Shown piece by piece: positions 15,791 through 45,966 of a stretch of DNA of 64,000 nucleotides. Each line of letters begins with the position of its first letter. Positions within the stretch are counted from its first letter, which is position 1. The stretch comes from Chloroflexota bacterium (GTDB taxonomy: Bacteria; Chloroflexota; JAHJIN01): NCBI GenBank assembly GCA_018823415.1, contig JAHJIN010000234.1, positions 1 through 64,000 on the forward strand, given 5' to 3'. The notes beneath the pieces are model-generated. The model made no database searches, was not told the origin of the DNA, and worked only from the letters and a program-made list of their open reading frames with translations. The position numbers and the translations under genes were made by a program.

Positions 15791-17914
15791 TTATTGGGCC
15801 CTCACCTGCACCGTGCCCACGGTGACGGCAATGCCCGTCCGGCCGCCCTGGGCGGACGGGTCGTCATCCACGACCCAGAGCCGCTGCATCGTCGCCGGGT
15901 CATACACACCTACGTCCAGGCGATAGTCGCCTGGGAGTGTGTCTGCCGGCACCTGGATGATGCCATAACTCAGGGCGCGGCTGCCCACCGGCCACGCCGT
16001 GGTGAGCCGGTGCTCGTTGTCGATCAGCGGCGCGTCGGCCTGGCCGGCCCCGCGCCCGGCACCGTCGTGCAAATAGACCGTGACCTTGTAATTGGCCGGC
16101 GGCGGCGACAGCGTCTCCCACTCCAAGACCATCCAGAGGCTGTCACCAGCAGGCACCGACGCCGGGCCATAGGCCGCGCCCCGCAGGGCCAGTTGCAGCG
16201 CGAAATTCCCGCCCACCGGCGACAGGGCGGGCAGCGCGAACGCAGCGTCTGCCGGCAGCGTATACTTCTCGATGACATAGCCGTGCCCGGGCATCTCGCT
16301 CGCCCGCTCCCCGGCCGTGCGCAGCAGGAAATCCACCAGCCGCTTGGGGTCGGCGTCCACGTGGTCGCCCTGGGTCCAGGTGACGACATAGACGCGCTCG
16401 TAGCCCCGGCACAGCGCCGTGAGGTCGCCCGGCGTCGTGACCTCGTTCACGCGCGGAAAATAGTATGGCGCATCGCCATGATAGAGATAATCGATGGTCT
16501 TGTGCGTATAGTCCGGGGGCCACAGGTGGCTGATGGGCAGCAGGAACACCACGCCCGGGCCATCCAGTGCGTTCATCCGGCCCGCGATCTCGGCCGCATC
16601 GCCGTGATAGGCATAGAACGTCTCCTCGCTGTGCGCCCAGGTATCAAAATAATCATGGTAGGTCAGGGCCGCATTGAGCAAGAGGGCGACGATCACCAGA
16701 CCGACGAACGTCAAACGTAAAACGTCAAACGTGAAACGTGGCAGCCGTGCGCGGTCGGCAGTCAGCCAGGACCAGATTCCCGTTACGGCCAAAGCGGGAA
16801 AGACAAACACGGCCGGCATGATGCCGATGGTCCGCAAAAAGTGGGGCGCGCCCTGGGAGATGACGCCGGGCAACAGCATGACGCCCAGCCAGGCCAGGAG
16901 CAAGGCGTAGCGGGGCTGCCGCCACCGCCAGATCGCCAACAGGACGCCGATGTAGAATAGGATTGCCGTCAACGGATCGAATACCGGCTTGCCTGCTAGA
17001 TTGTGCCTCCATGCCTCGTCGCCGCGCAGGCCAAACATACCGGCGGTGGCGACGACGTTGTTCAGCAAGGCGCGGGCCGGGTCCGGCGCCGCCGTCACCG
17101 ACACGTCGCCGCTGCGCCCGGCAAAGAGGTCCGGGTGCTGGACGAAATACATGCCCAGTGGCAAAAAGACGATGCAAGCAACCAGGGCGACCAGGAGCAG
17201 GGGGGCGATGGCGCCGCGGAGCGGAGGCGCAGGGGAACGAGGGAGCGCGCGGGACAAGGCCCACAGGCCGGTGAACGCGACCAGGACGAGCGGCACAAAG
17301 CGGCTGGCGGTGTAGGTATAGAGGCACAGGCCCAGGGCCGCGCCGGCCAGGATAAATAGCACGAGTGAGACCCGTTTTCTCTCAGAAAGCGGGTTTCCGC
17401 GTTCGCGCAAGGCCCACCAGAGTAAAGCAAAGGCGATGGCTTCCATGAGCGGCAGCATGATGGCCCGGAACCCCATGCGACTGAAGTGGACGTGCCAGTG
17501 CGAGACCGCCAGCCATGCCGTCGCCAGGGCCGCCAGGGCCACGCTGCGCCAACGCCCCTCGCCGGCGAACATGACGCGCACCAGCAGATACGTGGCCGGC
17601 ACCGTCGCCAGGCCCACCAACACGGCCGGCAGCCGGATCGCCTGCACCGTGGGACCCAGCCATGCCACCATCAGGGTGATGAGCCACAGGAACAAGGGCT
17701 CCCGGCCGCTGTTGTGGGGAAAAAAGATGGGCCACTGGCCGGTGCGCAGCACGTCCAGCGTGTCCACGCCGTGGTACGCCTCGTCATAGTACAGGCCGGT
17801 CGGGGTGGCGTTGATCTCGTACACGCGGAAAAAGGCGGCCACAGCCAAGAGGGCGAGCACGATAAACAGTTCCGGCCAGATTGCAGATTGCAGATTGCAG
17901 ACGACACGCCTCAT
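15791..17914 (-). CDS. GT39-like membrane glycosyltransferase with one C-terminal beta module
   Basis: A 707-residue protein with about 11-13 membrane segments in its first 430 residues. The first outer loop carries the acidic pair D44-E45 (YYDEAYHG), the hallmark of GT-C enzymes that use polyprenyl-phosphate sugars; SGREPLFLWL and SRMGFRA are typical of PMT/GT39 relatives. A soluble domain follows, and the last 140 residues form one copy of the beta-sandwich module (VTVYLHDGAG..., LPGDYRLDVGVYDPAT). The N-terminus is encoded partly by a TTGCAGA heptad array and residues around the RFTFDVLRLTF stretch by another (16707-16741). Start overlaps the upstream stop by four bases. Donor and acceptor unknown. 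Confidence 0.85.
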   Translation of the reverse strand: MRRVVCNLQSAIWPELFIVLALLAVAAFFRVYEINATPTGLYYDEAYHGVDTLDVLRTGQWPIFFPHNSGREPLFLWLITLMVAWLGPTVQAIRLPAVLVGLATVPATYLLVRVMFAGEGRWRSVALAALATAWLAVSHWHVHFSRMGFRAIMLPLMEAIAFALLWWALRERGNPLSERKRVSLVLFILAGAALGLCLYTYTASRFVPLVLVAFTGLWALSRALPRSPAPPLRGAIAPLLLVALVACIVFLPLGMYFVQHPDLFAGRSGDVSVTAAPDPARALLNNVVATAGMFGLRGDEAWRHNLAGKPVFDPLTAILFYIGVLLAIWRWRQPRYALLLAWLGVMLLPGVISQGAPHFLRTIGIMPAVFVFPALAVTGIWSWLTADRARLPRFTFDVLRLTFVGLVIVALLLNAALTYHDYFDTWAHSEETFYAYHGDAAEIAGRMNALDGPGVVFLLPISHLWPPDYTHKTIDYLYHGDAPYYFPRVNEVTTPGDLTALCRGYERVYVVTWTQGDHVDADPKRLVDFLLRTAGERASEMPGHGYVIEKYTLPADAAFALPALSPVGGNFALQLALRGAAYGPASVPAGDSLWMVLEWETLSPPPANYKVTVYLHDGAGRGAGQADAPLIDNEHRLTTAWPVGSRALSYGIIQVPADTLPGDYRLDVGVYDPATMQRLWVVDDDPSAQGGRTGIAVTVGTVQVRAQ
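16707..16741. repeat. Heptad array, 5 x 7 bp (AACGTCA type)
   Basis: Five consecutive heptamers: AACGTCA, AACGTAA, AACGTCA, AACGTGA, AACGTGG. Exactly 35 bp, inside the membrane region of a glycosyltransferase gene. It is the reverse complement type of the array at 44688-44722. Confidence 0.9.
17874..17901. repeat. Heptad array, 4 x 7 bp (TTGCAGA type)
   Basis: GGCCAGA followed by three perfect TTGCAGA units. It encodes residues 5-13 of the glycosyltransferase that starts at 17914. Confidence 0.88.
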
Positions 17915-20034
17915 GGCTCTATCTCTATGGTGCCCAAACGCACGTGGTCGCCCAGGGAATTGCCGGCGGCGTCGGTGGCCGGGAGACGCGTGCCGGTGAC
18001 CGGGTCGTACAGGCCCACGGCCAGGGTGTATTCGCCGGCCGGCGCGACTTGCCCTGAGCCTGTCGAAGGGTCGGCGTTGACCGCAAACTCGATGTCATCG
18101 ACCACGACCTGGCCGGGCTGCCACTGGCTGGTGGGCGCCGTGCCGCGCGCCGGGGGGCTGTCTTGCTGACCATAGATGCCAGGCCCGCCGTCGGCCCGGA
18201 CCACGTGGACGAAAACGGTATAGTCGGCGGAGATAGGCCCCAGACAACGCCAGTACAGGGTAAGGTAGTAGGTTGGTAAATTGGTGGAGTGGGCTTTGGT
18301 CAAGTCATAGCCGGTGAGGGCGATGGCGCCAAAGCGCACGTCGAGGGCGTGTGACGGCGTGCCCGGCTCGGCCAGGGGCGAGAGGTAAAGCGCCAGCCCC
18401 ACGCCGGCGAACTCGTGCGCCTCGACCTTGGCGCAGTGCGTGTCGAGCCAGGACTGGACCAGGCCGTTCGGGTCCCACGGCTCGCCGGCCTGGGGGATGA
18501 GCCACAGGCGGCGGTGTTGGCGGGCCAGTTGGTCCAGTTCGGTGGTGGTGACTGCTGCATCCCCCCCCCTCCCCGGCCCCGGCTGCGCCGGACTATAGCC
18601 TCCCCCGCCGGGGGAGGGGGCTTGGCGGGGCAGCAGGATGCGCTCGGCCTGATCGCCCCCCGTAGGGACCAGCCCATAGTAGTAGGTGAACGCGGTTTCC
18701 GGCGTGTTCTCGATGACGAGGTCGCCGGGGCGTTCGTGGGCGTGCAGGTACGCCGTCATGCCGCGCCAGTCGGGGCTTTTGGCATAGGCCGGGTCGAAAT
18801 AGTGATTGCTCAGGGCAAAGCCGCTGGCCGCCACGAGGTAGAGCAGGCCCAGTCCCAGCCGGGCATTGCGCACTACCACGCGGGTGGCAGCCGTCTGGGC
18901 CGGGTCGCCGGGCCGCACGAACGATTCCGACGCCGCCACCAGGCCCCGGGCCAGGATCAGCAGGTAAAACGGCGTGATGCCAATGAGATAGCGCTCGTGG
19001 AACATGGGCCGCCACTGGCTGAGGAACGCCACCAGCAGCACCGGCACCAGCACATAGATGGCCGCGATGTTGCGCCCGCTACCCAGCGGGTTCGGGGCGC
19101 GCTCGTGAGGCCGGCGTTGCAGCAGGCCGATGCCAAACAACAGGCCAAAGCCCAGGGTCAGCAGGAACGCGGCGAACAGGTCCAGCGCGGGTCCCAGGCT
19201 AAAGCCGATGATGGCCTGGAGCAGGATCGTGAGCAGGCCGGCCGCCGGCACATAGCCGCCGAACGCGGCAAACAACTGCGCGGCGACGACGAGCCAGGGC
19301 AGGTAGAGCAGCAGCACGGCGACCTGCGCCAGCACCCAGGGCCGCGTGCGCGGGTCGCGGGCCACCGTGCGGATGAGCCGGCTGATGGACGGATCGTCGG
19401 CGATGGCCCGGTGCGCGGCCAACACCAGGCTCCCGAACACGAGCAGGTTCTGGACCAGCAGCGTGAGGGCGGCGAAATAGTGCGTGTACAGTGCCAGGGC
19501 CGTGATCGCGATATAGGCCGCCCAACGCAGCCGGCCGCCGCGCCGCCAAGCCATCAACATCAACCATGCCGACAGGGCTGCCAGCGTCCCCAGCAGCGCG
19601 TACATGCGCGCATCCTGGGCGTGCCATACGTAAAAGGGATTGATGGCTGCCAGGAACGCGGCGATGAGGGCGATCTGCCGGTCGAGCAACTGCCGGCCCA
19701 GGGCATAGGCCACGGCTACCATGAGCACGCTGGGCACCACGGAAAAGAACCGCAGGGCGAACTCGGAATGGCCGGCCAGCGGCAGCCATAGCGACAGCAG
19801 CGCGTAATACAGCGGCGGATGCGGGTCGGTGCTGCCCAGGACGTTGGCCAGGCCGGCCCAGCCGGACCCGGCCGCCAGCACGCCATAGGCCTCGTCGCCG
19901 CGCAGGCTCTGAGCGTCCAGCAGGAACACGCGCAGGACCAGTGCGAGGAGCAAAATGCCGACCAGCAGCAGTTTTTGCCTGACGGCCTCGTGTCGCAGAG
20001 GATTGGGGATGGGTAGATTGGGAAATTTGGTCAT
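17911..20034 (-). CDS. GT39-like membrane glycosyltransferase with one C-terminal beta module
   Basis: A 707-residue GT-C type protein. D47-E48 (RGDEAYGVL) is the acidic pair in the first loop, and PHPPLYYALLSLW and NPFYVWHAQDARMYALL are classic for this family. About 11 membrane segments span residues 20-410. A short soluble domain and one beta module follow (DYTVFVHVV, APTSQWQPGQVVVDD, AGEYTLAVGLYDP). The start codon lies at the end of a 35-bp heptad array. The module's first strand is encoded by a second array (18260-18301), and a loop carries the STGSGQ insertion. Another insertion (GC palindrome, 18560-18630) falls in the soluble part. Overlaps both neighbours by four bases. Confidence 0.85.
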   Translation of the reverse strand: MTKFPNLPIPNPLRHEAVRQKLLLVGILLLALVLRVFLLDAQSLRGDEAYGVLAAGSGWAGLANVLGSTDPHPPLYYALLSLWLPLAGHSEFALRFFSVVPSVLMVAVAYALGRQLLDRQIALIAAFLAAINPFYVWHAQDARMYALLGTLAALSAWLMLMAWRRGGRLRWAAYIAITALALYTHYFAALTLLVQNLLVFGSLVLAAHRAIADDPSISRLIRTVARDPRTRPWVLAQVAVLLLYLPWLVVAAQLFAAFGGYVPAAGLLTILLQAIIGFSLGPALDLFAAFLLTLGFGLLFGIGLLQRRPHERAPNPLGSGRNIAAIYVLVPVLLVAFLSQWRPMFHERYLIGITPFYLLILARGLVAASESFVRPGDPAQTAATRVVVRNARLGLGLLYLVAASGFALSNHYFDPAYAKSPDWRGMTAYLHAHERPGDLVIENTPETAFTYYYGLVPTGGDQAERILLPRQAPSPGGGGYSPAQPGPGRGGDAAVTTTELDQLARQHRRLWLIPQAGEPWDPNGLVQSWLDTHCAKVEAHEFAGVGLALYLSPLAEPGTPSHALDVRFGAIALTGYDLTKAHSTNLPTYYLTLYWRCLGPISADYTVFVHVVRADGGPGIYGQQDSPPARGTAPTSQWQPGQVVVDDIEFAVNADPSTGSGQVAPAGEYTLAVGLYDPVTGTRLPATDAAGNSLGDHVRLGTIEIEP
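18048..18070. repeat. Dispersed 23-bp element encoding STGSGQ
   Basis: On the minus strand it reads CCCTTCGACAGGCTCAGGGC.., a sequence I recognise as a short repeat dispersed in many bacterial genomes. In frame it adds PSTGSGQ to a loop of the beta module where sister modules have only a short Asp/Pro turn. Confidence 0.75.
18260..18301. repeat. Heptad array, 6 x 7 bp
   Basis: Units GTAAGGT, AGTAGGT, TGGTAAA, TTGGTGG, AGTGGGC, TTTGGTC. Degenerate but in register. It encodes HSTNLPTYYLTL, the first strand of the beta module, at the same place as the arrays at 29411 and 43169. Confidence 0.75.
18560..18630. repeat. In-frame GC-rich palindromic insertion
   Basis: A C-run, CCCCGGCCCC and the stem CCTCCCCC-GCC-GGGGGAGG (18599-18617) lie inside the glycosyltransferase gene. 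It encodes a Pro/Gly-rich stretch (APSPGGGGYSPAQPGPGRGG) unlike the flanking protein and keeps the frame. Confidence 0.8.
20000..20034. repeat. Heptad array, 5 x 7 bp, ending in a start codon
   Basis: Units GGATTGG, GGATGGG, TAGATTG, GGAAATT, TGGTCAT. The last unit contains the ATG (minus strand) of the gene 17911-20034, so the array creates its first 11 residues (TKFPNLPIPN). Confidence 0.82.
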
Positions 20035-22421
20035 GGGGACACCGTTTCAGAGCGGCGAGACATTGTCACAGCTACGACGAGCAGGACGCCGGCGATGGCC
20101 AGGCTGGCGGCAGAGATGAGCGCGCCCAGCTTGAGCGATGCCGGGTCCAGCCACATCGTCACGCGATGGTCGCCGGCCGGGACCGGCACGGCGCGCAGGG
20201 TGTGGTCGGCATGCAGCACGGGCGCCGGGGCGTCATCGACCGTCGCCTGCCAGCCGGGAGACCAGTTCTCGCTCAGGACCAGCAGGCCCGGGGCCGCCGC
20301 GCTCACGTCTATCACGAGCCGGCCCGGCGCTTGCTCGATGACGCGAGCCGTGGACCCTGCGGGGGCGGTCGCGCCGGGCAGGTCGGTGGGCGCTGCCTGT
20401 TCCAGGATGGCGGCGGCACGAATGTCGAAATCCGGCGCAGCGAGCCGGGCCAGCCGCATGTCGGCCCGGGGCAGCACCTCGACACGATGGACTATCCAGG
20501 CGCGCGGGCCGGGGTTTGTCAGTTCGTACACGTCGGCCTCGTCGCCCTTGAAGACCTTGTGGAGGCCGTCGCGCGCCAGGTCGCCGCGCCACGTTGCCAC
20601 ATAGCGCACCGCCAGCAGGTCCCACAGCCGGCCCTCGGGCAGCGTGTTTACCACGTCGTCAAAGGCTTGCAGCTTGAGCGGGCTGGCCCCGCCCACGTCC
20701 TCCAGCTCGTAGAAGCAGCTGGCGTTGCCGGGCAGCGCGTCGCCGGTCACGCGAGTACCGGCCGTCGGCGCGTCGCGGAGATAGGCCAGGACCGGCGCGG
20801 GATTCAGGTGCTCGGCCGGCGACAGGTCGCCGGTCAGCGTGCGCATGTTGATGGAGAACAGATCGAGGACGATGAGGGCGAGAAAGGCAAATCGACAAAT
20901 GGACAAATGGGCAAATGCTGGCCGGAGGCGAGCGAACAAGAGCACTGTGCCCAGGGACAGGCAGAGCAGGACGATGAACCCTTTGTCCAGGGCGTCGTTG
21001 CGGGCCGGGAATTGCAGGCCCAGGGTGACGAGGGTCACGTAATAGAGCGCGGCCAGCAGGGCGGCGTAGAACAGGTCCAACTGGACCAGCCAGCCCAGGA
21101 ACCGGCGCAAGCGACGCCGGGCCTCGTCGGCCAGGGGCCGGGCGAGGGCGGCCGCGCCCAGGCCGGCCAGCACGGCCACGCCCAGGCTCCAGAGCACCGC
21201 GCCGCGCTCTTGCTGGCGAAAGATGCCAAATCCCGGTGCCAGCAAATAGAGCACGTCGTACAGGACCACGTGGCCGCCCAGCGAGAGCAGCAGTCCGAAC
21301 AGCGCCGTCCCGCCCCAGAACGCCACCTCGCGCGACCTGTTGCGCAGCGCCAGCGGCGCGACCAGGGCCAGGAGCAACGGCACAATGCCCACGTACAGCC
21401 CGGCCCACTCGGTCAGGGTGGGAAATAGCACCTGCATGAGGTCTTTGGGATTATAGCCGACAGCCGCCGCGTCATAGCCCAGGCTGGCCCGGGTGGTGAG
21501 GGGCATGTATTCTAGCGTGGGCACGAGTTGCACCGCCGCCACGCCAAAACCAAGCACCAGGAACAGGGCCGGATACGCTGCCAGCCGCGCGGCGTCGGCC
21601 CAACGACGCGCGCGCGCGGCGTGCACGAATGGCCCCAGCAGTCGAAAAGCCAGGTATGCCACGGCCGCATAGCCCACGAACAGGAACGCCTGGGGGTGAC
21701 CGGCCAGGATGGATACGCCCAGGGCCAGCCCGGCGAGGGTGGCAAAGGCGAGGGCTTGCACCCGGCCCCCCACCCCCACCCCGCGCTTTGCGTGCCTCTC
21801 CCCTTCCCCCCAATTTTGGGGGGAAGGGGAGGGGAAGGGGAGGGGATAGGGGGCCGAGGTAAGGGAATCCGCCATCACGTCCAGCGACAGGAGGATGAGC
21901 GGCAGCCACACCTCCACCTCCAGGATGGCGAGCTGGAGGGCCGGGTATGACGTGAGATAGCCGCCAAAGGCAAAAGCGATGCCGGCCACCAGGCCCCCAA
22001 ACATGCTGCCGGTCCGTCGTCGCACGAACAGGTACGTGAACGCCGCTGCCAGGAAAAAGTGCAAGATGGCCTGCACTTCCAGGGCATAGAGCGTGAGGTG
22101 CCCCCCGCTCAGCAGGTTGACGACGAGGCTGATCGGGTAAAACAGCCCGGCCTGGATGTCGGCGGCAAAGGGATGGCCGCCATACACGTAGGGAATCCAC
22201 AGGGGGATCCGGCCCTGCGCCAGCTCGCCGGCGGCGTAGGACTGGTAGGCATAAAACTGGTAGGTGAAATCGCCGGCAGGAAACGCGCGCTGGTCCGCCG
22301 GGTTGGGCGTGAGGACGCGCCAGAAAAAGAGCGCGGTGAGGGCCGCGAGCAGCCCCACGGCCAGGAGGTCGCGGAGCCAGGGCCGGGGATTGGCAGATTG
22401 GGGATTGGTGGATTGGTTCAT
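20031..22421 (-). CDS. YfhO-like multispanning membrane protein
   Basis: A 796-residue protein of the YfhO type, GT-C-fold relatives linked in Gram-positives to lipid or teichoic acid glycosylation. Family features are DFTYQFYAYQSYAAGELAQGRIPLWIPYVYGG near residues 51-82 and FGGYLTSYPALQLAILEVEVWLPLILLSLD in the middle, with about 12 membrane segments. The C-terminus has LSENWSPGWQATVDD, an outer beta domain, and a final membrane helix. It is the only large membrane protein of the cluster without the shared C-terminal module. It contains a palindromic insert (21798-21831) encoding Pro/Ser and Gly/Arg-rich residues and an octad array (20888-20919). ATG lies in another repeat (22384-22420). Confidence 0.85.
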   Translation of the reverse strand: MNQSTNPQSANPRPWLRDLLAVGLLAALTALFFWRVLTPNPADQRAFPAGDFTYQFYAYQSYAAGELAQGRIPLWIPYVYGGHPFAADIQAGLFYPISLVVNLLSGGHLTLYALEVQAILHFFLAAAFTYLFVRRRTGSMFGGLVAGIAFAFGGYLTSYPALQLAILEVEVWLPLILLSLDVMADSLTSAPYPLPFPSPSPQNWGEGERHAKRGVGVGGRVQALAFATLAGLALGVSILAGHPQAFLFVGYAAVAYLAFRLLGPFVHAARARRWADAARLAAYPALFLVLGFGVAAVQLVPTLEYMPLTTRASLGYDAAAVGYNPKDLMQVLFPTLTEWAGLYVGIVPLLLALVAPLALRNRSREVAFWGGTALFGLLLSLGGHVVLYDVLYLLAPGFGIFRQQERGAVLWSLGVAVLAGLGAAALARPLADEARRRLRRFLGWLVQLDLFYAALLAALYYVTLVTLGLQFPARNDALDKGFIVLLCLSLGTVLLFARLRPAFAHLSICRFAFLALIVLDLFSINMRTLTGDLSPAEHLNPAPVLAYLRDAPTAGTRVTGDALPGNASCFYELEDVGGASPLKLQAFDDVVNTLPEGRLWDLLAVRYVATWRGDLARDGLHKVFKGDEADVYELTNPGPRAWIVHRVEVLPRADMRLARLAAPDFDIRAAAILEQAAPTDLPGATAPAGSTARVIEQAPGRLVIDVSAAAPGLLVLSENWSPGWQATVDDAPAPVLHADHTLRAVPVPAGDHRVTMWLDPASLKLGALISAASLAIAGVLLVVAVTMSRRSETVSP
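20888..20919. repeat. Octad array, 4 x 8 bp (CAAATGGA type)
   Basis: CAAATCGA, CAAATGGA, CAAATGGG, CAAATGCT. It encodes FAHLSICRFAF within a membrane segment of the YfhO-like protein. Confidence 0.82.
21798..21831. repeat. In-frame palindromic insertion, 14-16 bp stem
   Basis: CTCCCCTTCCCCCC - AATTTT - GGGGGGAAGGGGAG is a perfect 14-bp inverted repeat (16 if AA/TT pair). It lies within a longer purine/pyrimidine-skewed stretch (about 21762-21855). It encodes the low-complexity PLPFPSPSPQNWGEGE region of the YfhO-like protein. Confidence 0.88.
22384..22420. repeat. Mixed 7/8-bp GATTGG array at a start codon
   Basis: Four GATTGG units spaced 8, 7 and 8 bases lead into the minus-strand ATG at 22421. 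They encode the first residues (NQSTNPQSANP) of the YfhO-like protein. Confidence 0.75.
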
Positions 22422-22442: not shown

Positions 22443-24383
22443 TCAACGAACGTCGAATGGCGGCAGGGTAATGACCTCGGCGCGGGGTTCCACGTCAAGC
22501 AGGGCCAGGTTGCGAAACCCGCCGTCGGGCAGGCGCTGGTAGACCACCACGTCGATATGGTATGGCCCGGGCGCGGCGCCGCGCAGCGACAGCTCGTAAT
22601 AGTCGCCCACCACCTCGCCGGGCGACCAGAGCGTGGTGGGATAGCAGCCCAGGACCGGGTGCGCGTTGTCGGCCTGGTCGATGAGCCGGCCTTCCCGGTC
22701 TACCAGTCGCACCGAGGCCGAGTAATCGGCCGGAAGCGCCTGGCGCGCCTGCCACCACAGCGTCAGCGACACCACGCTGTCGGCTGAGGTGCGATACCCG
22801 GCCAGCGACAGGCCGTCTTCCAGCGGGACATCGAGGCGCGTGGCCGGGGCCGGCAGTTCGGTTGCCGGCGCTGTGCCCACCCGGATGATGGCCCCCTCGC
22901 ACGACAGATAAGGCTGGCCCACGATTTCCGGCAGCGCCCGGGCCATGTATAGCGACTGGCCCCGGGCCGCCACCTCGTCGCGCAAGGGCAACACCAGGTC
23001 GATGGGATAGCGCACAACTACGTCCGGCCGCTGTCCCTCGATAAACTGGGCAACCCACAGGGCCGCGGCCTGCTCCCAATCGCAGACGATAACGGTGCCC
23101 GGGGCCACGGCCGACAGACTGCTGTCCACGAATCGCCGGGCCGTGGAACCCTGGAGAAACTGGCGGTGGAGGTCCAGCGGGGCCGCGCGCGCGTCTTCGA
23201 TGGCCTGATAGCGCGCCCACCCGCCGGGGAGCAGCAGCAAGAGCATCAAGGCCACCACCGCTGCGCCGGCCCAGTGCCCCACCGTTTCGCGCCGGCGCCA
23301 GGCCCACGCCACGAGTGCGCGCACCGCATCGGCCCCGGCTCCCACCCACAGGGCAAACAGGGCATAGGCCGGGATGAGAAAGACGACGTTGAGCCGGCCT
23401 TCCTGGACGTCGTACAGCAGCGTAAACAGCGCCAGCGGCGCAAAGGTCAGGGCCACGAGCAGTGCGCCGCGCCATCGCTTCCGATGGAACCACAGCGCGA
23501 CGAACCCCAGCAGCCCCAGGACCGTGCCCAGCCAGCCAAACTCGCGCAGCAGGATGTCCCAGAGCATCCCGGCCCGGCCCGGCAGCTCGGGCGACGTGAG
23601 GGGCAGCACGGTGGTGGCGAACTGGCGCGCCGTCACCAGGTCCAGAAAGCGGTCGAGTGTGTCGGGGTGATACAGGTCGAACGGCGAGCCCAGAGCGCTG
23701 CGAATCGGCAGGTAGAGGTAGAACAGCAGCGGCAGCGCGGTGAGAGCGGTCGCCGCGACGAGGGTCAGCGTGAGTCGGCGCGGCGCGCAGGCGCGACCGG
23801 CTCGGCGCTCGCGGGCCAGCACCAGCAGCACATAGAGCGCCAGGGCCGGGGCCGCCAGGATGGTGGTGCGGTGATGGGCCAGCCCCAGGCCATAGACAAA
23901 GGCGAGCAAGAGGAACCGGCGCGACGTTGGCCGCTCGCCCCACCACAGGGCCAGCGCCGTGACGAGGACGGCCAGACACGCCGTGAGGGTGCGGCCCCCG
24001 GCCACGGTGGACCAGAGCCACACCAACCCCACCAGGGGCCACGACAGCGCGCCCACGACAGCGGCCCCGGGCGACAGGCGCAATTGCCGGCCGACGAGAT
24101 ACAGCAGCGCCACGGTGACGCCGGCCAGCACCGCCGAAAGGAGGTTCATGCGCCAGGCCACGCTGCCCACCGGCACCAGGTACGACCAGGCCCAGCCCAG
24201 CAGCGTGTACAGCGGATAGCCGGTATAGTGCATGATGCCCAGCACCCGGGGCACAAACTGGGCCTCGCCGGGGTCGCCGCCGGCCACGCCGGGGTTCAGG
24301 GTGAACACGTACACGGCCAGGACCGTCAGGCCGACCAGGCCGGCGATGGCGAGTTCGCGGTGGCCCGTCATATGACGCGTCAT
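22443..24383 (-). CDS. DUF2723-like membrane protein with one C-terminal beta module
   Basis: A 646-residue protein. GVAGGDPGEAQFVPRVLGIMHYTGYPLYTLLG at about residues 32-63 is the signature of the DUF2723 family, GT-C-like proteins related to protein O-mannosyltransferases. About ten membrane segments run to residue 400. A short outer domain and one beta module follow (LSLAGYRTSADSVVSLTLWWQAR, CYPTTLWSPGEVVGDYYEL). The ATG at 24383 overlaps the upstream stop as ATGA. A longer frame starting at 24491 would lie inside that upstream gene and is not used. Substrate unknown. Confidence 0.84.
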   Translation of the reverse strand: MTRHMTGHRELAIAGLVGLTVLAVYVFTLNPGVAGGDPGEAQFVPRVLGIMHYTGYPLYTLLGWAWSYLVPVGSVAWRMNLLSAVLAGVTVALLYLVGRQLRLSPGAAVVGALSWPLVGLVWLWSTVAGGRTLTACLAVLVTALALWWGERPTSRRFLLLAFVYGLGLAHHRTTILAAPALALYVLLVLARERRAGRACAPRRLTLTLVAATALTALPLLFYLYLPIRSALGSPFDLYHPDTLDRFLDLVTARQFATTVLPLTSPELPGRAGMLWDILLREFGWLGTVLGLLGFVALWFHRKRWRGALLVALTFAPLALFTLLYDVQEGRLNVVFLIPAYALFALWVGAGADAVRALVAWAWRRRETVGHWAGAAVVALMLLLLLPGGWARYQAIEDARAAPLDLHRQFLQGSTARRFVDSSLSAVAPGTVIVCDWEQAAALWVAQFIEGQRPDVVVRYPIDLVLPLRDEVAARGQSLYMARALPEIVGQPYLSCEGAIIRVGTAPATELPAPATRLDVPLEDGLSLAGYRTSADSVVSLTLWWQARQALPADYSASVRLVDREGRLIDQADNAHPVLGCYPTTLWSPGEVVGDYYELSLRGAAPGPYHIDVVVYQRLPDGGFRNLALLDVEPRAEVITLPPFDVR

Positions 24384-26626
24384 CGCTGCACCTCGATGGT
24401 GGTCAGCAGCATGTGGTCGCCGATGGGCTGCCCGGCGTCGTCCAGGACCGGGAGTCGGTCCCCGGTGACCGGATCGTACAGGCCGGCCCACAACTCATAT
24501 CGGCCCGGTGGAACGTTCTGCAAAGACAGGAGATGTGGGTCTATGATCTGTTCGCCGGGCACCCACCAGGAGGTGGGATATTCCCCACGGCGCGGTTGAC
24601 CGTCGGTTGAAGCTGCCCATTGCCCCTGAGCGTCTACCAGGTGCAAAAAGACCGTGTAATCCAGCGCCGGCTGCTCTAGCGCTTGCCAGTAGAGCGTCAC
24701 GCGCCAGGGGTCCTGTCTAGTTGAGGGTTTGTCTATCGTATGACCGACGAGCGCGATCTGATGGCCGAAATCGTCGTATACTGGTTGTGCGGGCAGCTCG
24801 GCCGGAGCCGAGGGCGGCAATTTGACATGGCCAATGGCATTGCCGATGCTGTTTCCGGCCTCGTCAAAGGTGGGCAAGCGGTCCAGCGTTTCCAACACAT
24901 ATAGCCCGACGTCGATGCGCGCCAGGACCGGTCCCTGGGCTTGGGGCGAGATCGGGACGGGGATGGTATCCACGATCACGGTGCCCGGCTGCCATTGGCT
25001 GGTGGGCAGATTGCCCAGGCCCGGGTAGGTGTCGCGCTGGCCGATGCCTTGTTGCTTCTGGCCAAATACCTGGACGAACACGCTATAGTTTTGTTCGATG
25101 GGACGCAAGACTTGCCAGTGTAGCGTGATCCGTAACGTTTCGCCGGGCTGTATCTCGGTCTGGTCCAGATCGTAACCGCGCAGTACCGCGCAGTCGGCAT
25201 AACGCACATAGAGTGGGTGGGAGATGGTCGGCATATCACTGGCGGCCAGGACTGGCGGTGGGGCATAAGCCGGCGCAATGTAAAAGACCAGACAGATAAT
25301 GGCCAAGCTCACCAGGGCGAGCAGCGTGGCCCATGCCCCCGCCGATTTGAGCCGCCTGGGGAAGAAGGCCTGCAATCCCAGGAAAAGCAGCAGCGATAGC
25401 GCCGGGATAGCTACAAACAGATTGCGTCCAAAGTAAGCGCTGGGTGTTCCGCTGATATAATAGGCCACGGCGGCGACCGTGAGAGCCACCCAGGCGAGGA
25501 TGACGAGCCACTGCGCGATTTTGCCCTTGGAGCGGATAGCGCTTCTACCGCCGTACAAAACCAGACCCAGGCCAATCGTTGCCAGGCCCATGATCAAATC
25601 CAAAGCCTGATAAATCGGTGTAGCTATTGGAACACTACCCGGTCCAAAGCAGGCCCAGTAAGAACGGCGAACATTGTCGATAGCGACCCCAATAGTTTCT
25701 AACGAGAGAGGTGCTTCGTAGCGTCCCAGGGTGTCGCGCATATACTCCACGCTGGTCCAATCGCCATACAAGATCCAGTTACGCCCGAACCACCACCCGC
25801 TCACAAGGAGCACAATGGTCCCCACGATCAGCGAATGCCGGATCGCCGGCCGGATCTGCCGGGTTCGCCGAAGTTCCACGAGGATCGCCAAAACGATGAG
25901 TGGCAGCACGATCAGCCCGCTGAGCTTGGTCAAGATGGCCAGCGATGCCAGTATGCCCACCAGCACGGCGACGCGCATCGTCCAGCCGGTACGGATGTGA
26001 CGGACCAGCACCAATGTCGTGAGCGCCACGAGCGCCGTCACCAGACCGTCGTTCGTCACCGAGGCACAGGTGTATATGAACTGGGGGTTAAAGGCGGTCA
26101 GGGCGGTTGCGCCCAGGGTGATAAGGGGGCGATCCTGAAACATCGTGTCGGTTATGAAATAGGTTGAAATGACAGAGATGGCCCCGATCAGCACAGACAG
26201 CCAACGGATGGCGTGGAGAGCCAGTATCGTTTTCTGAAAAGGGAAATTCTCCCAGGGGCCGTGCAGATAGGCATTTTTGTTGTCCCTTCCCACGTCGCCG
26301 ATGCCGTATGCCCAATATGGATTGTACTGAATCACGGCATCCAGATCGCTGGTATCGACCCATCCAAAGCTCGCTGCTCCCATTACATAGTACAGAGGAG
26401 GCTGCCAGGTCTCGTGATTGATGCCGAATACGCCTTTGGTCAGCACCGGCAGGCGGCGCTCGGCGGCAAGCCACGTGATGTAACGAAAGTGGGCTTGCTC
26501 GTCATAGCCCTCAAAGGGTGGATTGACCAGGCTGTAGGCGGTGCCCAGCAGCAGGTATAGGCCCAGGATCAGGAGCAGGGGCCAGTGTTGGACCAGCTTT
26601 TGGCGCCGAGTCGTGACCAGGCTCAT
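24380..26626 (-). CDS. DUF2142/GT39-like membrane protein with two beta modules
   Basis: A 748-residue protein. The first outer loop has NPPFEGYDEQAHFRYITWLA (D42-E43) and later WQPPLYYVMGAASF, close to DUF2142/GT-C proteins. About 11 membrane segments reach residue 430. Two consecutive beta modules follow: residues about 470-600 (LRGYDLDQTEIQPGETLRI, NLPTSQWQPGTVIVD) and 615-748 (DYTVFLHLVDAQG, YPTSWWVPGEQIID, LPVLDDAGQPIGDH). The middle of the gene is somewhat richer in A/T than its neighbours. ATG 26626 overlaps the upstream stop by four bases; a longer frame is rejected as shadow. The last 100 bp nearly match the ends of the two upstream genes. Confidence 0.84.
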   Translation of the reverse strand: MSLVTTRRQKLVQHWPLLLILGLYLLLGTAYSLVNPPFEGYDEQAHFRYITWLAAERRLPVLTKGVFGINHETWQPPLYYVMGAASFGWVDTSDLDAVIQYNPYWAYGIGDVGRDNKNAYLHGPWENFPFQKTILALHAIRWLSVLIGAISVISTYFITDTMFQDRPLITLGATALTAFNPQFIYTCASVTNDGLVTALVALTTLVLVRHIRTGWTMRVAVLVGILASLAILTKLSGLIVLPLIVLAILVELRRTRQIRPAIRHSLIVGTIVLLVSGWWFGRNWILYGDWTSVEYMRDTLGRYEAPLSLETIGVAIDNVRRSYWACFGPGSVPIATPIYQALDLIMGLATIGLGLVLYGGRSAIRSKGKIAQWLVILAWVALTVAAVAYYISGTPSAYFGRNLFVAIPALSLLLFLGLQAFFPRRLKSAGAWATLLALVSLAIICLVFYIAPAYAPPPVLAASDMPTISHPLYVRYADCAVLRGYDLDQTEIQPGETLRITLHWQVLRPIEQNYSVFVQVFGQKQQGIGQRDTYPGLGNLPTSQWQPGTVIVDTIPVPISPQAQGPVLARIDVGLYVLETLDRLPTFDEAGNSIGNAIGHVKLPPSAPAELPAQPVYDDFGHQIALVGHTIDKPSTRQDPWRVTLYWQALEQPALDYTVFLHLVDAQGQWAASTDGQPRRGEYPTSWWVPGEQIIDPHLLSLQNVPPGRYELWAGLYDPVTGDRLPVLDDAGQPIGDHMLLTTIEVQR

Positions 26627-39693: not shown

Positions 39694-39746
39694 GTTGCCT
39701 CCATCTGCTGCAATTATACCCTTCCTGGCACGAGTTCACAACCCTT

Positions 39747-39796
39747 ACCTTCCCGCAAGCGGCGAACCTGCGGTTCGCTTGAGCTTGCGAGAAGGT
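39747..39796. repeat. Nested stem-loop between genes
   Basis: Outer arms ACCTTCCCGCAAGC (39747-39760) and GCTTGCGAGAAGGT (39783-39796) pair with one mismatch. Inside, GCGAACC and GGTTCGC (39762-39778) pair perfectly. On the minus strand it follows the stop at 39801 and could act as a weak terminator or processing site. Confidence 0.82.
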
Positions 39797-39800
39797 CTTT

Positions 39801-42800
39801 TTACGGTGCCGCTGCCAGCGAGCCAAAGGTCACGCGAATGCCGCCCGGCGGAACGGTGGCGCCGGTGGCCTTTTCGTACAGGTTGACAGCCAAGTGATAC
39901 TCGCCCGGGGGCGCGCCCTCCCAGATGACGATGCGGTAGGTGTCGGGGATCACCTCGCCCACGCCCCAATCGGTGGTGAGATACGTGCTGCCCACCGGCT
40001 CGAAATCTTCCTGGCCCCAGAGCACGCCGTCCGGCCCGATGACCTGCGCCGATACGGTGTATGACGTAGCGATGGGGGCCAGGCAACGCCAGTACAGCGT
40101 GAGAACCAGGGCCTCGTCCCGGTTCGGGCCGACGCGCAATGGCTCTGGCGTCACGTCGTACCCCACCAGAGCGATGCGGTCGTCCAATTGTATGGCATCT
40201 ATGGGATGCGATGGCGCGGCCTCGTGCGGATAGGGGACCTTGACCCGGGCCAGGGGCACGTCGGCGAGACCGGCGTTCGGGTCGAGCAGGCGCCGGCCGG
40301 TGAGCCCGTCGTACAACGACAGGCACAGCTCGTAGGCCCCCGGCCCCAGGTCGGCCGGGACCGTCAACTCGTACTGGCGCGTGACCAATTGCCCCTCGGG
40401 CCACTGGGTAGTGGGCGGCAGGTCGAGCACCGGCAGGAAATCGCGCTGCGCATGGGTCTGCCCCCGGCCGTCGCGGAGGGCCAGGGCCACGCTGTAATCG
40501 TCGCGGACGATGCCCCGGGCGTGCCAGCCCAGCACCACGTCCAGGGATTGGCTGGGTCGTACCGGGGCCGGGCCCCCTGTTTCCGCCCATGTCCCCAGGT
40601 CGAACCCGGCAAAGGCGATCTGGCCGGTCTCGTCGCCCAGCACAAGGTCGCGGAGGTACTGGAATGCCGGCTCGACCGGCGATGCGGCCGGACGCGTCAC
40701 GGTCCAGGTAGTCAGCGATGTGATGCCCAGCGGCTCGCCGGCCGGGTCCAGCACGGCAAGCAGGAGGCGATAGTCGCCGGGCGGGGCCTCCGAGGGCAGC
40801 GCCAGCACCCAGGGGTCCGGCATCACCTCGCCCACCTCCCACGTGGTCATGGGCGCGGTGCCGTGGACCGGGTCGCCCTCGCGGTGCGACCAGACCGTAC
40901 CATCGGCAGCCTGCCAGCCCAGGACCACACGATACGGCTCGGTGATGGGGCCGCGTGCCTGCCAGTAGAGCGTCAGGTTCGCCGCGTCGTCCAGGCGGTA
41001 GCCCACGAGCCGGAGCGAGTCGCCAAAATCGACGGCGAGGGGCTGGATTGGAGGCGGCGCCGAGGACGGGGCGGTGAGGGCCGGGAGGCTCAAGATCGGC
41101 ACGAGCAGGAGCGCCGGGACGACCAGCGCTGCCAGCCCGCGCCAGCGAGCGGCCCAGAAGCACAGACCGGCCAGCGTCAGCAGGGCCGCCAGCGAGATGA
41201 CGTTGCCGGCCAGGCGAACCGGCGTGTCGGCGTGGTACAAGGCCACCTGGTGCGCGCCGGCCGGCACGTCGATGGCTGCCAGGCCCAGGGGACCGACCGG
41301 TCGCACCGGGACCGGCCGGCCGTCTATCGTGGCTTGCTGGGTGGGATAGTAAAAGGCATGCAGGACGACGGGGCCGGCGCCGCTGGTCGCCAGGCGCAGG
41401 GTAAACGGCGTGTGCTCGATGACCTGGACCGTCGGCGGCCTGGCGGCCGGGTCAATGCCGCGCTCGTCGGCGGTCAAAGGGCGGCGGGGTATCTCGCCGG
41501 GCTTCCACTCCACCCAGGCCGGCACGTACTCGGACGAGATGCTGGCCCCCATGTGGCCGGTGAGGTACTCTTGGCGGTGCACGCCGGCGACGGTGAGTTC
41601 GCTGTCGGTGAGGTGCCAGTGACCACCGGGCAAACCGGCAGTGGCGGATGCGATCAGGATAGCAGCGATGATCGGCGGCCCGCACCACCATAAATAAGCG
41701 ATGCTGGCTTTCCATCCCAGCGTCGCCTGTTCGCGGCGGCGCATCTCTGGCATCAGCATCGCCAAGGAGCCGATGAGCGGCGCGAGGCACAGGCCCACGC
41801 CGGCCAGGAATCGCCAGGGCCAGACGTGAGAGACCAGGCCTACGGCGTTCCACAGAGGCCGGGTCAGGTCGGTCATGAACAAGAGCTGCACGGCCGCCAG
41901 CCCGGCCAGGGTCGCCAGGAGGCCCCGGGGCGCGCGCTTGAGCCGGGCTACCAGCGGCACCGCCAGCCCGACCAGCGCCAGGAGCAGCGGCACCAAGGCC
42001 ATGTTCTTCTGGACATAGTCGTAAACCAGGCTGGTCTGCACCAGCCCGGTCAACGGCACGAGCATGGTGCGCGGGTCAAAGACCTCTTCCGTCAGGTGTT
42101 CCGCCGAGACCAGGGGCAGTTCGGCCCAGGCCGGGAGCCAGTAGAAGGCAGTCAATGCCAGGAACAGGAGGCCGGCTGCACCCAGGAGCAAGAGGCCCCG
42201 TCGCCAATGGGCGCGCTGGCTGACCAGCAGCGCCAGGCAGTAGACGCCCAGCGCCGGCGCGAACATGAGGGCGGCAATGTTGTGGGCCAGGAGCAGGGCG
42301 GCCAGGGTCAGGGCTGCGACCGGCACGTAGACCAGTCGTCGCTCGACGATGAGCCGGTGCAGTACCCACGCCGCCAGCGGCGCGACGGCCATTGCCAGTG
42401 CTTCGGCCAACGCCCCGCGCTCGTACAGGTTGACCAGGAAATACGGAAAATAGACATAGGCCACGGCCGACAGGAACGGTGCGGCGATGCGCTCGCGGCC
42501 AAAGATCTCGCGCGTCCAGGTATACATCGCCAGTGCGGCCAGCAGGACGGTCAGTACCCACACGGCCTTGAGGCTCAGGACGAGGTCGAGGTCCAGGACG
42601 TGGAACACCTCGGCCAGATAGTAGGTCAGTGGCGCGTAAAAGTTGAACACGCCGTCGCCGTACCCGTAGCCAAAGTTGGGCGCCCAGCGAGGGAGCAGCG
42701 TGCCGGTCGCCAGCACGCGATGGAATTCGGCCAGGCGAAAAGCGTGAACGTAGGCGTCCATGGCCCGGATCAGCCCGGGGCGCAGCAGCGGCGCCAGGGC

Positions 42801-42869
42801 CGGCAGCGCCGCCAGCACCGTCAACACGGGGCCGCGATGTCGCCAGAAGAACGCCGCTGCGCGCTGCAT
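39801..42869 (-). CDS. PF10131-like membrane protein with three beta modules
   Basis: A 1022-residue paralogue of the protein at 31831. The marker RAMDAYVHAFRLAEFHRVLATG (D38) and YGYGDGVFNFYAPLTYYLAEV are near the N-terminus. About 12 membrane segments reach residue 420. AIDVPAGAHQVALYHAD is followed by another membrane pair near 560-600. Three beta modules then end the protein, from about 618 (SLRLVGYRLDDAANLTLYWQARGPI), 740 (IAFAGFDLG) and 880 (RIALVGYDVTPEPLRVGPN). The ATG follows the upstream stop after one base, so translation is coupled. Confidence 0.84.
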   Translation of the reverse strand: MQRAAAFFWRHRGPVLTVLAALPALAPLLRPGLIRAMDAYVHAFRLAEFHRVLATGTLLPRWAPNFGYGYGDGVFNFYAPLTYYLAEVFHVLDLDLVLSLKAVWVLTVLLAALAMYTWTREIFGRERIAAPFLSAVAYVYFPYFLVNLYERGALAEALAMAVAPLAAWVLHRLIVERRLVYVPVAALTLAALLLAHNIAALMFAPALGVYCLALLVSQRAHWRRGLLLLGAAGLLFLALTAFYWLPAWAELPLVSAEHLTEEVFDPRTMLVPLTGLVQTSLVYDYVQKNMALVPLLLALVGLAVPLVARLKRAPRGLLATLAGLAAVQLLFMTDLTRPLWNAVGLVSHVWPWRFLAGVGLCLAPLIGSLAMLMPEMRRREQATLGWKASIAYLWWCGPPIIAAILIASATAGLPGGHWHLTDSELTVAGVHRQEYLTGHMGASISSEYVPAWVEWKPGEIPRRPLTADERGIDPAARPPTVQVIEHTPFTLRLATSGAGPVVLHAFYYPTQQATIDGRPVPVRPVGPLGLAAIDVPAGAHQVALYHADTPVRLAGNVISLAALLTLAGLCFWAARWRGLAALVVPALLLVPILSLPALTAPSSAPPPIQPLAVDFGDSLRLVGYRLDDAANLTLYWQARGPITEPYRVVLGWQAADGTVWSHREGDPVHGTAPMTTWEVGEVMPDPWVLALPSEAPPGDYRLLLAVLDPAGEPLGITSLTTWTVTRPAASPVEPAFQYLRDLVLGDETGQIAFAGFDLGTWAETGGPAPVRPSQSLDVVLGWHARGIVRDDYSVALALRDGRGQTHAQRDFLPVLDLPPTTQWPEGQLVTRQYELTVPADLGPGAYELCLSLYDGLTGRRLLDPNAGLADVPLARVKVPYPHEAAPSHPIDAIQLDDRIALVGYDVTPEPLRVGPNRDEALVLTLYWRCLAPIATSYTVSAQVIGPDGVLWGQEDFEPVGSTYLTTDWGVGEVIPDTYRIVIWEGAPPGEYHLAVNLYEKATGATVPPGGIRVTFGSLAAAP

Positions 42870-42870
42870 G

Positions 42871-45800
42871 TCACCGCACCTCGATGGGGCCGATAGTCAC
42901 GTGGTCTGTGTCGCCGGTGGGGAGCCGCTGGCCGGTGCCGGCATCATACCAGCCCACGGCGATGGTGTACGCGCCCGGGGGCGCGCCGGGGTCCACCGGG
43001 ATGTCATAGGTGTCGGTCAGCACCTCGCCGGTGAACCAACTGGTGGTGGGGCATTGGCCGGCGCAGGGGATGCTGTCGCGCTGGCCGCGCTGCTGGCCGG
43101 TCGGGTCCAGCAGGTGCGTAAACACGGTGTACGACGTCGATACGGGGGCCAGGCAGCGCCAGAAGAGGGTAAGGTGGATGGTAGATTGGGAACTGGTAAC
43201 CTCGTAACCCAGGAGTTCGATAGTGCCGCCAGCGCGGTCGCCAAAGGTGGCGCGGAAGGGCTGCTCGATGGCCGGTACGTCAAAGGAGTGGGGCCGGCCC
43301 TGGATGTGCAGCGGGACGATGGGGGCCAGGCCGGTCTCGCGTCCATCCGGGCTGACCAGTGACACGGTCACCATGGCGTCGCCGGGTGGCGCGTCGGCCG
43401 GCAGGCGCAGGTCGAACCAGTTATACCACGTCTCGCCGACCTGCCACTGGTTGGTGGGATGATCGGGGCCGGCCGGGTAACCGGTGGTTGCGACGACCGC
43501 CCCGCCGCCGTCCAGCAGTGCCAGCTTGACCCGGACCGACGTGGTGATGGGGGCAGTGGCCTGCCAGTACAGCGCGATGGGCACCGTGGTGCCGGGCGCA
43601 AAGGTATCGACCGGTAACTCGAATCCCAGGAGCTCGAGGCCCGGCACGTCGTCAAAATACACCAGGCGGGGATGGGACACACCGACGGCGTCAGGCGACA
43701 GCGGCGCGGCCGGCGGCACCACGGTGACGGTGCCCACCGGAGCTTCAGTGCCCAGCAGTTGGCCGCTCTCGTCGAAATGGCCGTGCCGGCGAAAGGTGAC
43801 CGGGTCATAAAGGCCCACGGTCACGGTGTAGGTGCCTGGTGGCGTGCCGGGCCAGACCGGCAGGATGGCATAGCCCCAGTTTTCGGCACCGTCTTGCCAG
43901 CGAGTGACCGGCTGGTGGTTATCGTCCAAAAGCGCTTGGCTGGCCTGGGCGATGAGATGGCCCCCGGCGTCCCGCAAATAGTAGAACGCGCTGTAATCGG
44001 CATCCACAGGGGCGGTCTTGCTCCAGCGTGCGGCGACCCAGACGTTGCCGCCGGACGGCACGGTGGTGGTGAGCACGTCGGGGCCACCGGCCGCGCCGAC
44101 GGTTGCGCCTACGGCGGCGCCGGTCAACGCTACCTGGTAACCAAAGTTGTCAGCGCGGGGGTGGAGCGTCTCGGCGATGGTAAAGGTCTCGGGCGGATTC
44201 GGCACCTCAAAGAACGAGGCGGCCCAGCCGTGCCCCGGCTCGATGGCGGTGCGCACGCCGTATTTGCCCAGCAGGTAACGCACCAGGCCCTTGGGGTCCG
44301 CGTCCAGGAACTCGCGCGTGGTCCACTCGATGGCGACCGGCGACCGGCGCTCCCGGCAGACGGCGGCGATCTGGGCCGGGGTGGCGGCTTCGCTCACTGG
44401 CACATAGACGTGCGGCGCGCTACCCCGATACAAAAAGTCGATGGTCAGATGGCGATGCGGCTGCCCCTCGATGTAGCTGGGATAGCCGGCCGGGATGAGC
44501 AGCAGGTAAGCGCGATCATCGGCTGGCAGACGATTGAGATACTCGGCCAGTTCGACATTATGCCCGTCGAACGCCAGGTAATTCTCCTCGCTCGTCGCCC
44601 AGACGGTAAAATAATCGCGGGCGTTGATGGCGGTGATAACCACCAGGGCAATGATGACGATGATAGCCCAGATGTAGGGTGCGCGCATGACGTTTGACGT
44701 TTGACGTTTGGCGTTTGACGTGATATGCGATGCACGACTAGCTAGCCAGATGCCGATCTGCACCGTGGCATACGCCGCCAGAATGGCGATGGCCGGCAGG
44801 AGCGCGGTTTGCCGGGGAAAGTGCGGCACCAGGTCGGCGGCGATGAGGCCGGGCACGAGCATGATGGCGAACCACAGCAGCAGAAACTGGCCGGTGGTCC
44901 GGCGCCACACACAGTGTCCTGCGGATCTCCACAGGCACAGCAGCAGCCCGACGACGAACAGGATGAACGTGAACGGGTCCAGCAGGGGCCGGCCCGGCAG
45001 ATTGTGCGTCCAGTTTGGGTCACCCTGTACGGCAAACATGCCGGCCGTTTTGAGCAGGTTCTGTGCGAGCGTGCCCAACGGGTCGCCGTGGTTGAGGACC
45101 GGGTTGAACAAGGACACCTGCGCGGCCCGGGCCGTGAACTCGGACCAGTGCGTGATATAGTATGCGCCCAGCGGCAAAAAGACGAGGAGGGCGACGGCGG
45201 CGAGGAGCGTGATGTGTGAAGCGTGATGTGCGAAGCGCGATCTATCCCGCACCATTTGGACGAGGACAAAGGCAGCCAACACGAACGGCACGAACCGGCT
45301 GGTGGGGTAGGTATAGAGGCAGAGGCCCAGGGCCGCGCCGGACAGGGTGAACCACACCGCAGGAGCGATCCGGGTGCTTGCCCGATCACGTGCTGCGTTC
45401 CACCCTCGCCAGAAGAGCCAGAAGGCCAGCGTCTCGAACAGGGCCACGCTGCCGGCCCGGAACCCCACCCGGCTAAAGTGGATGGCCGGGTACATCACGG
45501 CGAGCCAGAGGGTGGCGAGGAGAGCAATGACCTGGGCGCGTTTGTCTCCCCCACCCTGTCCGTGCGCAGCCTCTCGAAGCGAAGCGAGGGGCTCCCCCGC
45601 TGGGAGGGGGGACCAGGTCCGGAACATCTCGCGCGCCAGGAGATACGTGGTCAGGAGCGTGGCGGTGCCGCAGAGAGCCGAGGCGAGCCGGATGGCATAA
45701 GCGGTTTGCCCCACCCAGGGGGTCAGGAATAGCCCGGCCACCAGGTACATGAACAGCGGCTCCTTGCCGCCGCTGTACGGGAAAAAGACCGGCCACTCGC

Positions 45801-45966
45801 CGCGCAGGATAGATTGGGCATCCAGCCCCTTGCCGGCCTCGTCAAAGAACAGACCCGGGGGAACGTGGTCCAGCGCATAGAGGCGCAGCCCCAGGCCCAG
45901 CAGCAGGACAGCCAGCAATGCCCAAACAGGCCAATGTGCGAATACCCATTTGTTCAATTTGCTCAT
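42871..45966 (-). CDS. GT39-like membrane glycosyltransferase with three beta modules
   Basis: A 1031-residue GT-C protein, close to those at 15791 and 26623. D42-E43 (LFFDEAGKGLDAQ), GGKEPLFMYLVAG and HFSRVGFRAGSVALFETLAFWL mark the core, with about 11 membrane segments up to residue 470. A soluble domain (DGHNVELAEYLNRLPADDRAYLLLIPAGYPSY) precedes three modules at about 625-765, 775-900 and 905-1031. A palindromic insert adds SPLPAGEPLASLREAAHGQGGG near residue 120, and three repeat arrays cut through the gene. ATG 45966 lies in an octad array; longer frames are shadows of the radical SAM gene. Confidence 0.85.
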   Translation of the reverse strand: MSKLNKWVFAHWPVWALLAVLLLGLGLRLYALDHVPPGLFFDEAGKGLDAQSILRGEWPVFFPYSGGKEPLFMYLVAGLFLTPWVGQTAYAIRLASALCGTATLLTTYLLAREMFRTWSPLPAGEPLASLREAAHGQGGGDKRAQVIALLATLWLAVMYPAIHFSRVGFRAGSVALFETLAFWLFWRGWNAARDRASTRIAPAVWFTLSGAALGLCLYTYPTSRFVPFVLAAFVLVQMVRDRSRFAHHASHITLLAAVALLVFLPLGAYYITHWSEFTARAAQVSLFNPVLNHGDPLGTLAQNLLKTAGMFAVQGDPNWTHNLPGRPLLDPFTFILFVVGLLLCLWRSAGHCVWRRTTGQFLLLWFAIMLVPGLIAADLVPHFPRQTALLPAIAILAAYATVQIGIWLASRASHITSNAKRQTSNVMRAPYIWAIIVIIALVVITAINARDYFTVWATSEENYLAFDGHNVELAEYLNRLPADDRAYLLLIPAGYPSYIEGQPHRHLTIDFLYRGSAPHVYVPVSEAATPAQIAAVCRERRSPVAIEWTTREFLDADPKGLVRYLLGKYGVRTAIEPGHGWAASFFEVPNPPETFTIAETLHPRADNFGYQVALTGAAVGATVGAAGGPDVLTTTVPSGGNVWVAARWSKTAPVDADYSAFYYLRDAGGHLIAQASQALLDDNHQPVTRWQDGAENWGYAILPVWPGTPPGTYTVTVGLYDPVTFRRHGHFDESGQLLGTEAPVGTVTVVPPAAPLSPDAVGVSHPRLVYFDDVPGLELLGFELPVDTFAPGTTVPIALYWQATAPITTSVRVKLALLDGGGAVVATTGYPAGPDHPTNQWQVGETWYNWFDLRLPADAPPGDAMVTVSLVSPDGRETGLAPIVPLHIQGRPHSFDVPAIEQPFRATFGDRAGGTIELLGYEVTSSQSTIHLTLFWRCLAPVSTSYTVFTHLLDPTGQQRGQRDSIPCAGQCPTTSWFTGEVLTDTYDIPVDPGAPPGAYTIAVGWYDAGTGQRLPTGDTDHVTIGPIEVR
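43169..43203. repeat. Heptad array, 5 x 7 bp
   Basis: GTAAGGT, GGATGGT, AGATTGG, GAACTGG, TAACCTC. Exactly 35 bp; it encodes VTSSQSTIHLTL, the first strand of the last beta module, at the same module position as the array at 18260. Confidence 0.75.
44688..44722. repeat. Heptad array, 5 x 7 bp (TGACGTT type)
   Basis: TGACGTT x3, TGGCGTT, TGACGTG. Exactly 35 bp and the reverse complement type of the array at 16707-16741, so the two lie in opposite orientation relative to their genes. Confidence 0.92.
45209..45243. repeat. Heptad array, 5 x 7 bp (GTGATGT/GTGAAGC type)
   Basis: GTGATGT, GTGAAGC, GTGATGT, GCGAAGC, GCGATCT. Exactly 35 bp, alternating two unit types. It encodes SRFAHHASHITL next to a membrane segment. 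Confidence 0.88.
45552..45616. repeat. In-frame palindromic insertion
   Basis: Two adjacent inverted repeats (CTCTCGAAGC/GAAGCGAGGGG and CTCCCCCGCTGGGAGGGGG) lie within the glycosyltransferase gene. They encode SPLPAGEPLASLREAAHGQGGG, absent from sister proteins at this loop. Confidence 0.75.

Follow-up and report, generated by a model that had tools for sequence, protein, structure and literature searches.

We have found that ten of eleven large membrane proteins encoded on the minus strand at positions 15791-45966 of a Chloroflexota genome fragment (the window, the whole 64-kb stretch analysed here) end in copies of one module, predicted to be a beta-sandwich, and we provide good support for a distant homology between this module and the carbohydrate-binding domain Wzt_C. 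We infer from this kinship that the module binds sugar, and it is probably, though by no means surely, an extracytoplasmic glycan-binding module that tethers envelope enzymes to their glycan acceptor. It is also evident that the module is widespread in Chloroflexota and occurs on several kinds of envelope protein.

A hidden Markov model (HMM) built from six terminal copies recovered 19 modules of about 130 residues each, C-terminal in exactly ten carriers and in no other open reading frame of the window. Domain scores were 36 to 198 bits, against a best score of 10.6 bits among 2200 residue-shuffled C-termini. There is one copy in gA, gB, gD and gI, two in gE, gF and gH, and three in gG, gJ and gK. 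An earlier note on this DNA had read one to three copies on ten of the eleven proteins, 18-19 in total; the HMM finds its 19 copies in the same ten proteins, the motifs listed in that note are present in the module alignment, and its coordinates are correct, position 45966 being the Met codon of gK. Residues G15, W37 and W78 are invariant in all 19 aligned copies, and the module has motifs of its own (TLYW, PTSxW and GLYD..RLPV). In the window proteins it is matched by no Pfam-A or NCBIfam model, and we found no description of the domain in the open-access literature, a scope that excludes most subscription journals. The eleven proteins are as follows.

gA, 15791..17914, minus strand: GT-C-like core with one module (15794-16237)
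gB, 17911..20034, minus strand: PMT_2 (GT39/83-like) core with one module (17914-18351)
gC, 20031..22421, minus strand: YfhO-family membrane protein, the sole one without a module
gD, 22443..24383, minus strand: TMEM260-like (PF11028) core with one module (22446-22859); likely start ATG 24383
gE, 24380..26626, minus strand: PMT_2/DUF2142-like core with two modules (24809-25225, 24383-24787); likely start 26626
gF, 26623..29097, minus strand: PMT_2 core with two modules (27067-27498, 26626-27042)
gG, 29094..31769, minus strand: PMT_2 core with three modules (29910-30281, 29535-29870, 29097-29477)
gH, 31831..34605, minus strand: PTPS_related (PF10131) core with two modules (32302-32688, 31849-32259)
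gI, 34628..36772, minus strand: multi-TM core, no Pfam match, with one module (34631-35035); likely start 36772
gJ, 39801..42869, minus strand: PTPS_related/DUF6541 core with three modules (40695-41045, 40254-40652, 39816-40202)
gK, 42871..45966, minus strand: GT-C core with three modules (43708-44163, 43309-43665, 42874-43251); start 45966

By the starts in the open reading frame list, neighbours gA/gB, gB/gC, gD/gE, gE/gF and gF/gG overlap by 4 nt, which resembles a translationally coupled operon. The cluster encloses an FAD amine-oxidase-like gene (38167-39693, minus strand), and a gene for a B12-binding radical SAM protein borders it upstream (45993-47480, minus strand). Elsewhere on the minus strand of the window, two overlapping frames (50400-51689 and 51287-52102) share one Peptidase_S9/esterase match, so that 50397-52102 looks like one hydrolase gene split by a frameshift or assembly error, and positions 975-5376 hold a polyphosphate-related cluster of two adjacent PPK2 genes, a CHAD plus Ppx/GppA-like/HD protein and a CYTH protein.

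The membrane cores appear to be diverse members of the GT-C glycosyltransferases. Eight of the eleven proteins pass a Pfam cut-off: gB, gE, gF and gG with PMT_2, gD with a TMEM260-like family, gH and gJ with PTPS_related, and gC with YfhO. At E<1e-10 the ten module-bearing cores fall into five clusters (gA, gB, gF, gG and gK; gE; gD; gH and gJ; gI), which places gK and also gA, itself without a PMT_2 match in Pfam, with the PMT_2 set. A wider set of 208 cores plus gC forms 26 clusters at the same threshold, but at E<1e-5 169 of these join in one component. Thus, the cores look like diverged branches of GT-C. The suggestion that they are unrelated goes too far, as most of them belong to one superfamily. 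In GT-C enzymes the first outer loop, shortly after the first transmembrane (TM) helix, contains an acidic motif, and all ten module-bearing cores have such a motif soon after TM1 (for example YYDEA, FGDEA, WFDEG, GYDEQ and PRTDD). The many TM helices typical of GT-C are likewise present, with 6-12 TM segments in most cores. For gI, an AlphaFold2 model from 4 sequences was good in the module region, with core pLDDT mostly <60.

Two window proteins fit a putative rule that the module has to lie outside the membrane. In gC, the protein without a module, a terminal TM helix with RR after it probably leaves the C-terminus in the cytoplasm; gH has additional hydrophobic segments before its modules.

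The fold of the module points to a family of sugar-binding domains. AlphaFold2, given the terminal module of gF with a 19-sequence alignment, returned an all-beta sandwich with one short helix (pLDDT 96.7, pTM 0.89), in agreement with the earlier proposal of one shared beta-sandwich module. The sequence of the module had no significant match among PDB chains, but a Foldseek search of the PDB ranked first the carbohydrate-binding domain of Aquifex aeolicus Wzt (8dky, E 9.5e-6, TM 0.65), a structure that holds bound 3-O-methyl-mannose, and placed further Wzt domains at ranks 3, 4, 6, 9 and below within the top 50. However, NPC2, RhoGDI and CARDB sandwiches were listed at similar E-values, and thus sugar binding does not follow from the fold by itself.

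Profile comparison likewise supports the link to Wzt_C. Aligned by hhalign, 384 modules and a Wzt_C set of 13 domains (five from Chloroflexota, the other eight spread over seven further phyla) gave a probability of 81% and E 1.4e-6 over 120 aligned columns (1-130 against 6-126); smaller sets gave 65% and E 5.9e-5. Controls reached 0.2% with CARDB, at most 0.6% with reversed profiles and at most 0.3% in 30 column shuffles. The CARDB family (PF07705) is thereby ruled out as the parent of the module. The Pfam Wzt_C model itself had no match at E<=1 in the window proteins, and no module copy reached its gathering threshold; the best module match was in a PTPS/YfhO-like carrier from the wider set (L187, residues 501-582, E 4.9e-4, 19.7 bits against a cut-off of 30.4), where it overlaps an 83-bit match to the module HMM at 498-610.

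The module and Wzt_C (PF14524; PDB 8dky, 6o14, 2r5o and 5hno) thus share a beta-sandwich (TM 0.65), a significant profile match and C-terminal fusion to a membrane-associated polysaccharide machine. They differ in setting: Wzt_C sits in one copy per chain on a cytoplasmic ABC ATPase, whereas the module, with its own motifs, occurs in one to four copies on GT-C and other membrane proteins, probably on the outer side. We found the module on no polysaccharide-exporter ABC ATPase, its carriers being GT-C proteins, acyltransferases, PASTA kinases and a DUF3485 protein. In O-antigen ABC transporters the Wzt carbohydrate-binding domain reads the glycan terminus, and the genome studied here has one Wzt_C ABC transporter gene of its own.

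A putative sugar site can be placed on the module by this kinship. In Wzt, the cap sugar lies on the concave sheet with Leu300, Thr346, Ala348, Trp362 and loop 352-356 (PMC9445017). Leu300 corresponds to H52 of the module, Ala348 to G106, His350 to Y108 and the trap loop to DPxTxxRL; this mapping comes from aligning a single strand pair by hand and not from a superposition. Both F50 and Y108 are on the same faces as the mapped pocket positions. Across 384 copies, F50, H52 and Y108 have an information content of 2.9-3.1 bits, among the most conserved positions, and among the positions listed only W37 (4.9 bits) exceeds them. The strong conservation of these outward-facing residues suggests a ligand site. 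With about 26-54% identity the copies differ considerably, and their ligands may differ too.

The module extends well beyond the window. The same genome encodes 59 copies in 38 open frames, and 23 of its 46 frames with a PMT_2 match carry one. Measured against this rate, the module is locally enriched in the window, where ten of the eleven proteins carry it (P = 0.006 by a binomial test with p = 0.5, a rough figure since not all cores are PMT_2). It was present in 45 of 121 sampled Chloroflexota genomes, a draw in which 34 candidates were scored per genome, and some of these had >30 copies. In a scan of 84,980 species, all loci among the best matches listed, below which some 200 weaker ones ranked, were from Chloroflexota, chiefly Anaerolineae, and the plasmid records searched gave no match. 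Very long frames of the genome that holds the window (1791-2330 aa; C413, C104 and C214) contain several CARDB domains.

Among 232 distinct carriers, 189 are uncut by locus ends. The last module lies no more than 20 residues from the C-terminus in 185 of these, and six or more TM segments are predicted in 170. Some short carriers that lack TM segments look like frameshifted fragments. Each carrier has one to four modules, and the core types include O-acyltransferase PF01757, DUF2079, PMT_2, TMEM260-like and PTPS_related proteins. Acyltransferase-type carriers form a cluster of seven members in three genomes (assigned by Pfam on one member) and occur as tandem genes at two loci, L166 and L168; at L166:3295-12114 there are three in tandem, each with a module at its end. 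Two further carriers, one in the same genome (L062:2950-5097) and one in another (L167:4477-6414), combine a Ser/Thr kinase (Pkinase E<1e-49), a TM helix, two PASTA domains over the cut-off and the module, and a DUF3485/EpsI-like protein (L146) has three modules. Thus, the module is not confined to GT-C proteins. The earlier note had asked whether hits are always C-terminal on GT-C proteins; the C-terminal placement holds almost throughout, and the restriction to GT-C does not.

Modules appear to have moved among these cores. On a tree of the 59 modules of the genome, in which most branches are weakly supported, position in the protein (last or inner) required 11 changes, compared with 17.5 when the labels were shuffled (1 of 300 shuffles was as low), and core class 15, compared with 18.3 (9 of 300). 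The modules of gH and gJ show inheritance by position. The PASTA-kinase module pairs with the module of a GT-C protein (L078) at 95% SH-aLRT, and among gE, gF and gG the last modules are 48-54% identical, the first modules 29-36% and the cores 25-29%. From this pairing and the identity of the last modules we therefore conclude that modules change partners. Module exchange between cores is thus seen; the combinatorial surface-glycosylation system suggested in the earlier note is still hypothetical.

Other functions for such a sandwich deserve consideration. It might have a structural or assembly role, as a spacer or protein-protein dimerisation element comparable to Ig-like repeats that keeps enzymes together in one complex or in the wall and binds no sugar, as its tandem copies, its presence on kinases and an EpsI-like protein, its resemblance to CARDB and NPC2, and the dimerisation of Wzt domains (PMC9445017) would allow. 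The profile link goes to Wzt_C and not to CARDB, and a spacer would not need aromatic and His residues so highly conserved on its putative sugar face, so we regard this as rather unlikely. We give still less weight to binding of peptidoglycan or another wall polymer, in which the module would be a general anchor or sensor localising its carriers in the wall. PASTA domains in known kinases bind wall muropeptides, and fusion to them, together with the broad range of carriers, is what such an anchor would predict. However, many Chloroflexota genomes have few copies of the module or none, and its Wzt_C relatives read the termini of exported polysaccharides rather than peptidoglycan (PMC9445017).

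The least probable alternative, to which we attach little credence, is that the ligand is not the acceptor but a lipid, or else the lipid-linked donor (polyprenyl-phosphate sugar). The Foldseek matches include two sandwiches that bind lipids, NPC2 (a sterol binder) and RhoGDI, but the best match and the sole profile-level link are to Wzt_C, and the module is also found on PASTA kinases, which use no donor substrate. A glycan acceptor is therefore the ligand that we favour, given that both structure and profile link the module to a sugar-binding domain. The earlier suggestion of a common glycan ligand gains from this as to the glycan; that one ligand is common to the carriers we infer only.

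Binding of a glycan acceptor would give the module a clear place in envelope assembly. It would form the outer C-terminal end of membrane-embedded enzymes for the synthesis or modification of envelope glycans, in which the membrane core would catalyse transfer, as a GT-C enzyme using a polyprenyl-phosphate-linked sugar or as an acyltransferase. One to four modules could hold the growing or acceptor glycan beside the active site, which may govern acceptor choice and processivity as with the C-terminal module of EmbC. In PASTA kinases, the module would signal whether that glycan is present.

The earlier note knew of no described system of this form, but the theme is known from EmbC (PMC3044687) and from the MIR domain of PMT enzymes (PMC7759382). 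EmbC, a GT-C transferase for an envelope polysaccharide, likewise has a sugar-binding beta domain at its outer C-terminal end, a lectin-like carbohydrate-binding module for which acceptor binding has been demonstrated (PMC3044687); it is mycobacterial and a single enzyme family, its module is not common to many cores, and no sequence relation is evident. The MIR domain is also extracytoplasmic and of a carbohydrate-binding type, and its GT-C core belongs to GT39, but it is a beta-trefoil, eukaryotic and luminal, and not in C-terminal repeats (PMC7759382). The two kinase carriers share with PknB/PrkC-type PASTA kinases the order of kinase, TM helix and PASTA repeats, after which they add the C-terminal Wzt_C-like module. 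Sugar-binding tails on GT-C enzymes are thus already known, and what appears to be new is the family, how many copies it has and that acyltransferases and kinases also carry it.

The envelope in which these proteins would act is described as layered, of unresolved make-up and lacking BAM in Chloroflexota (PMC13319060). In line with this, we found no Omp85 match in the genome, in a search that matched 7 of 14 controls. For the archaellin of Litorilinea, O-glycosylation has been proposed from density, the machinery being unidentified in that report (PMC12488501).

More broadly, it is possible, although we hold this only tentatively, that in Chloroflexota a single module derived from Wzt_C is a portable address for glycans on synthases, O-acyltransferases and sensor kinases, so that a single envelope glycan would be built, decorated and monitored through it, and that recombination of modules retunes the specificity of these enzymes. 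With its defined fold, its tens of copies in a genome and its tie to a sugar-reading domain, the module offers a handle on enzymes that would act on the same glycan, and as a soluble unit of 130 residues that should be readily expressed it could serve to probe for that glycan. Additionally, it adds an unnamed domain family to many proteins that are annotated only by their membrane part.
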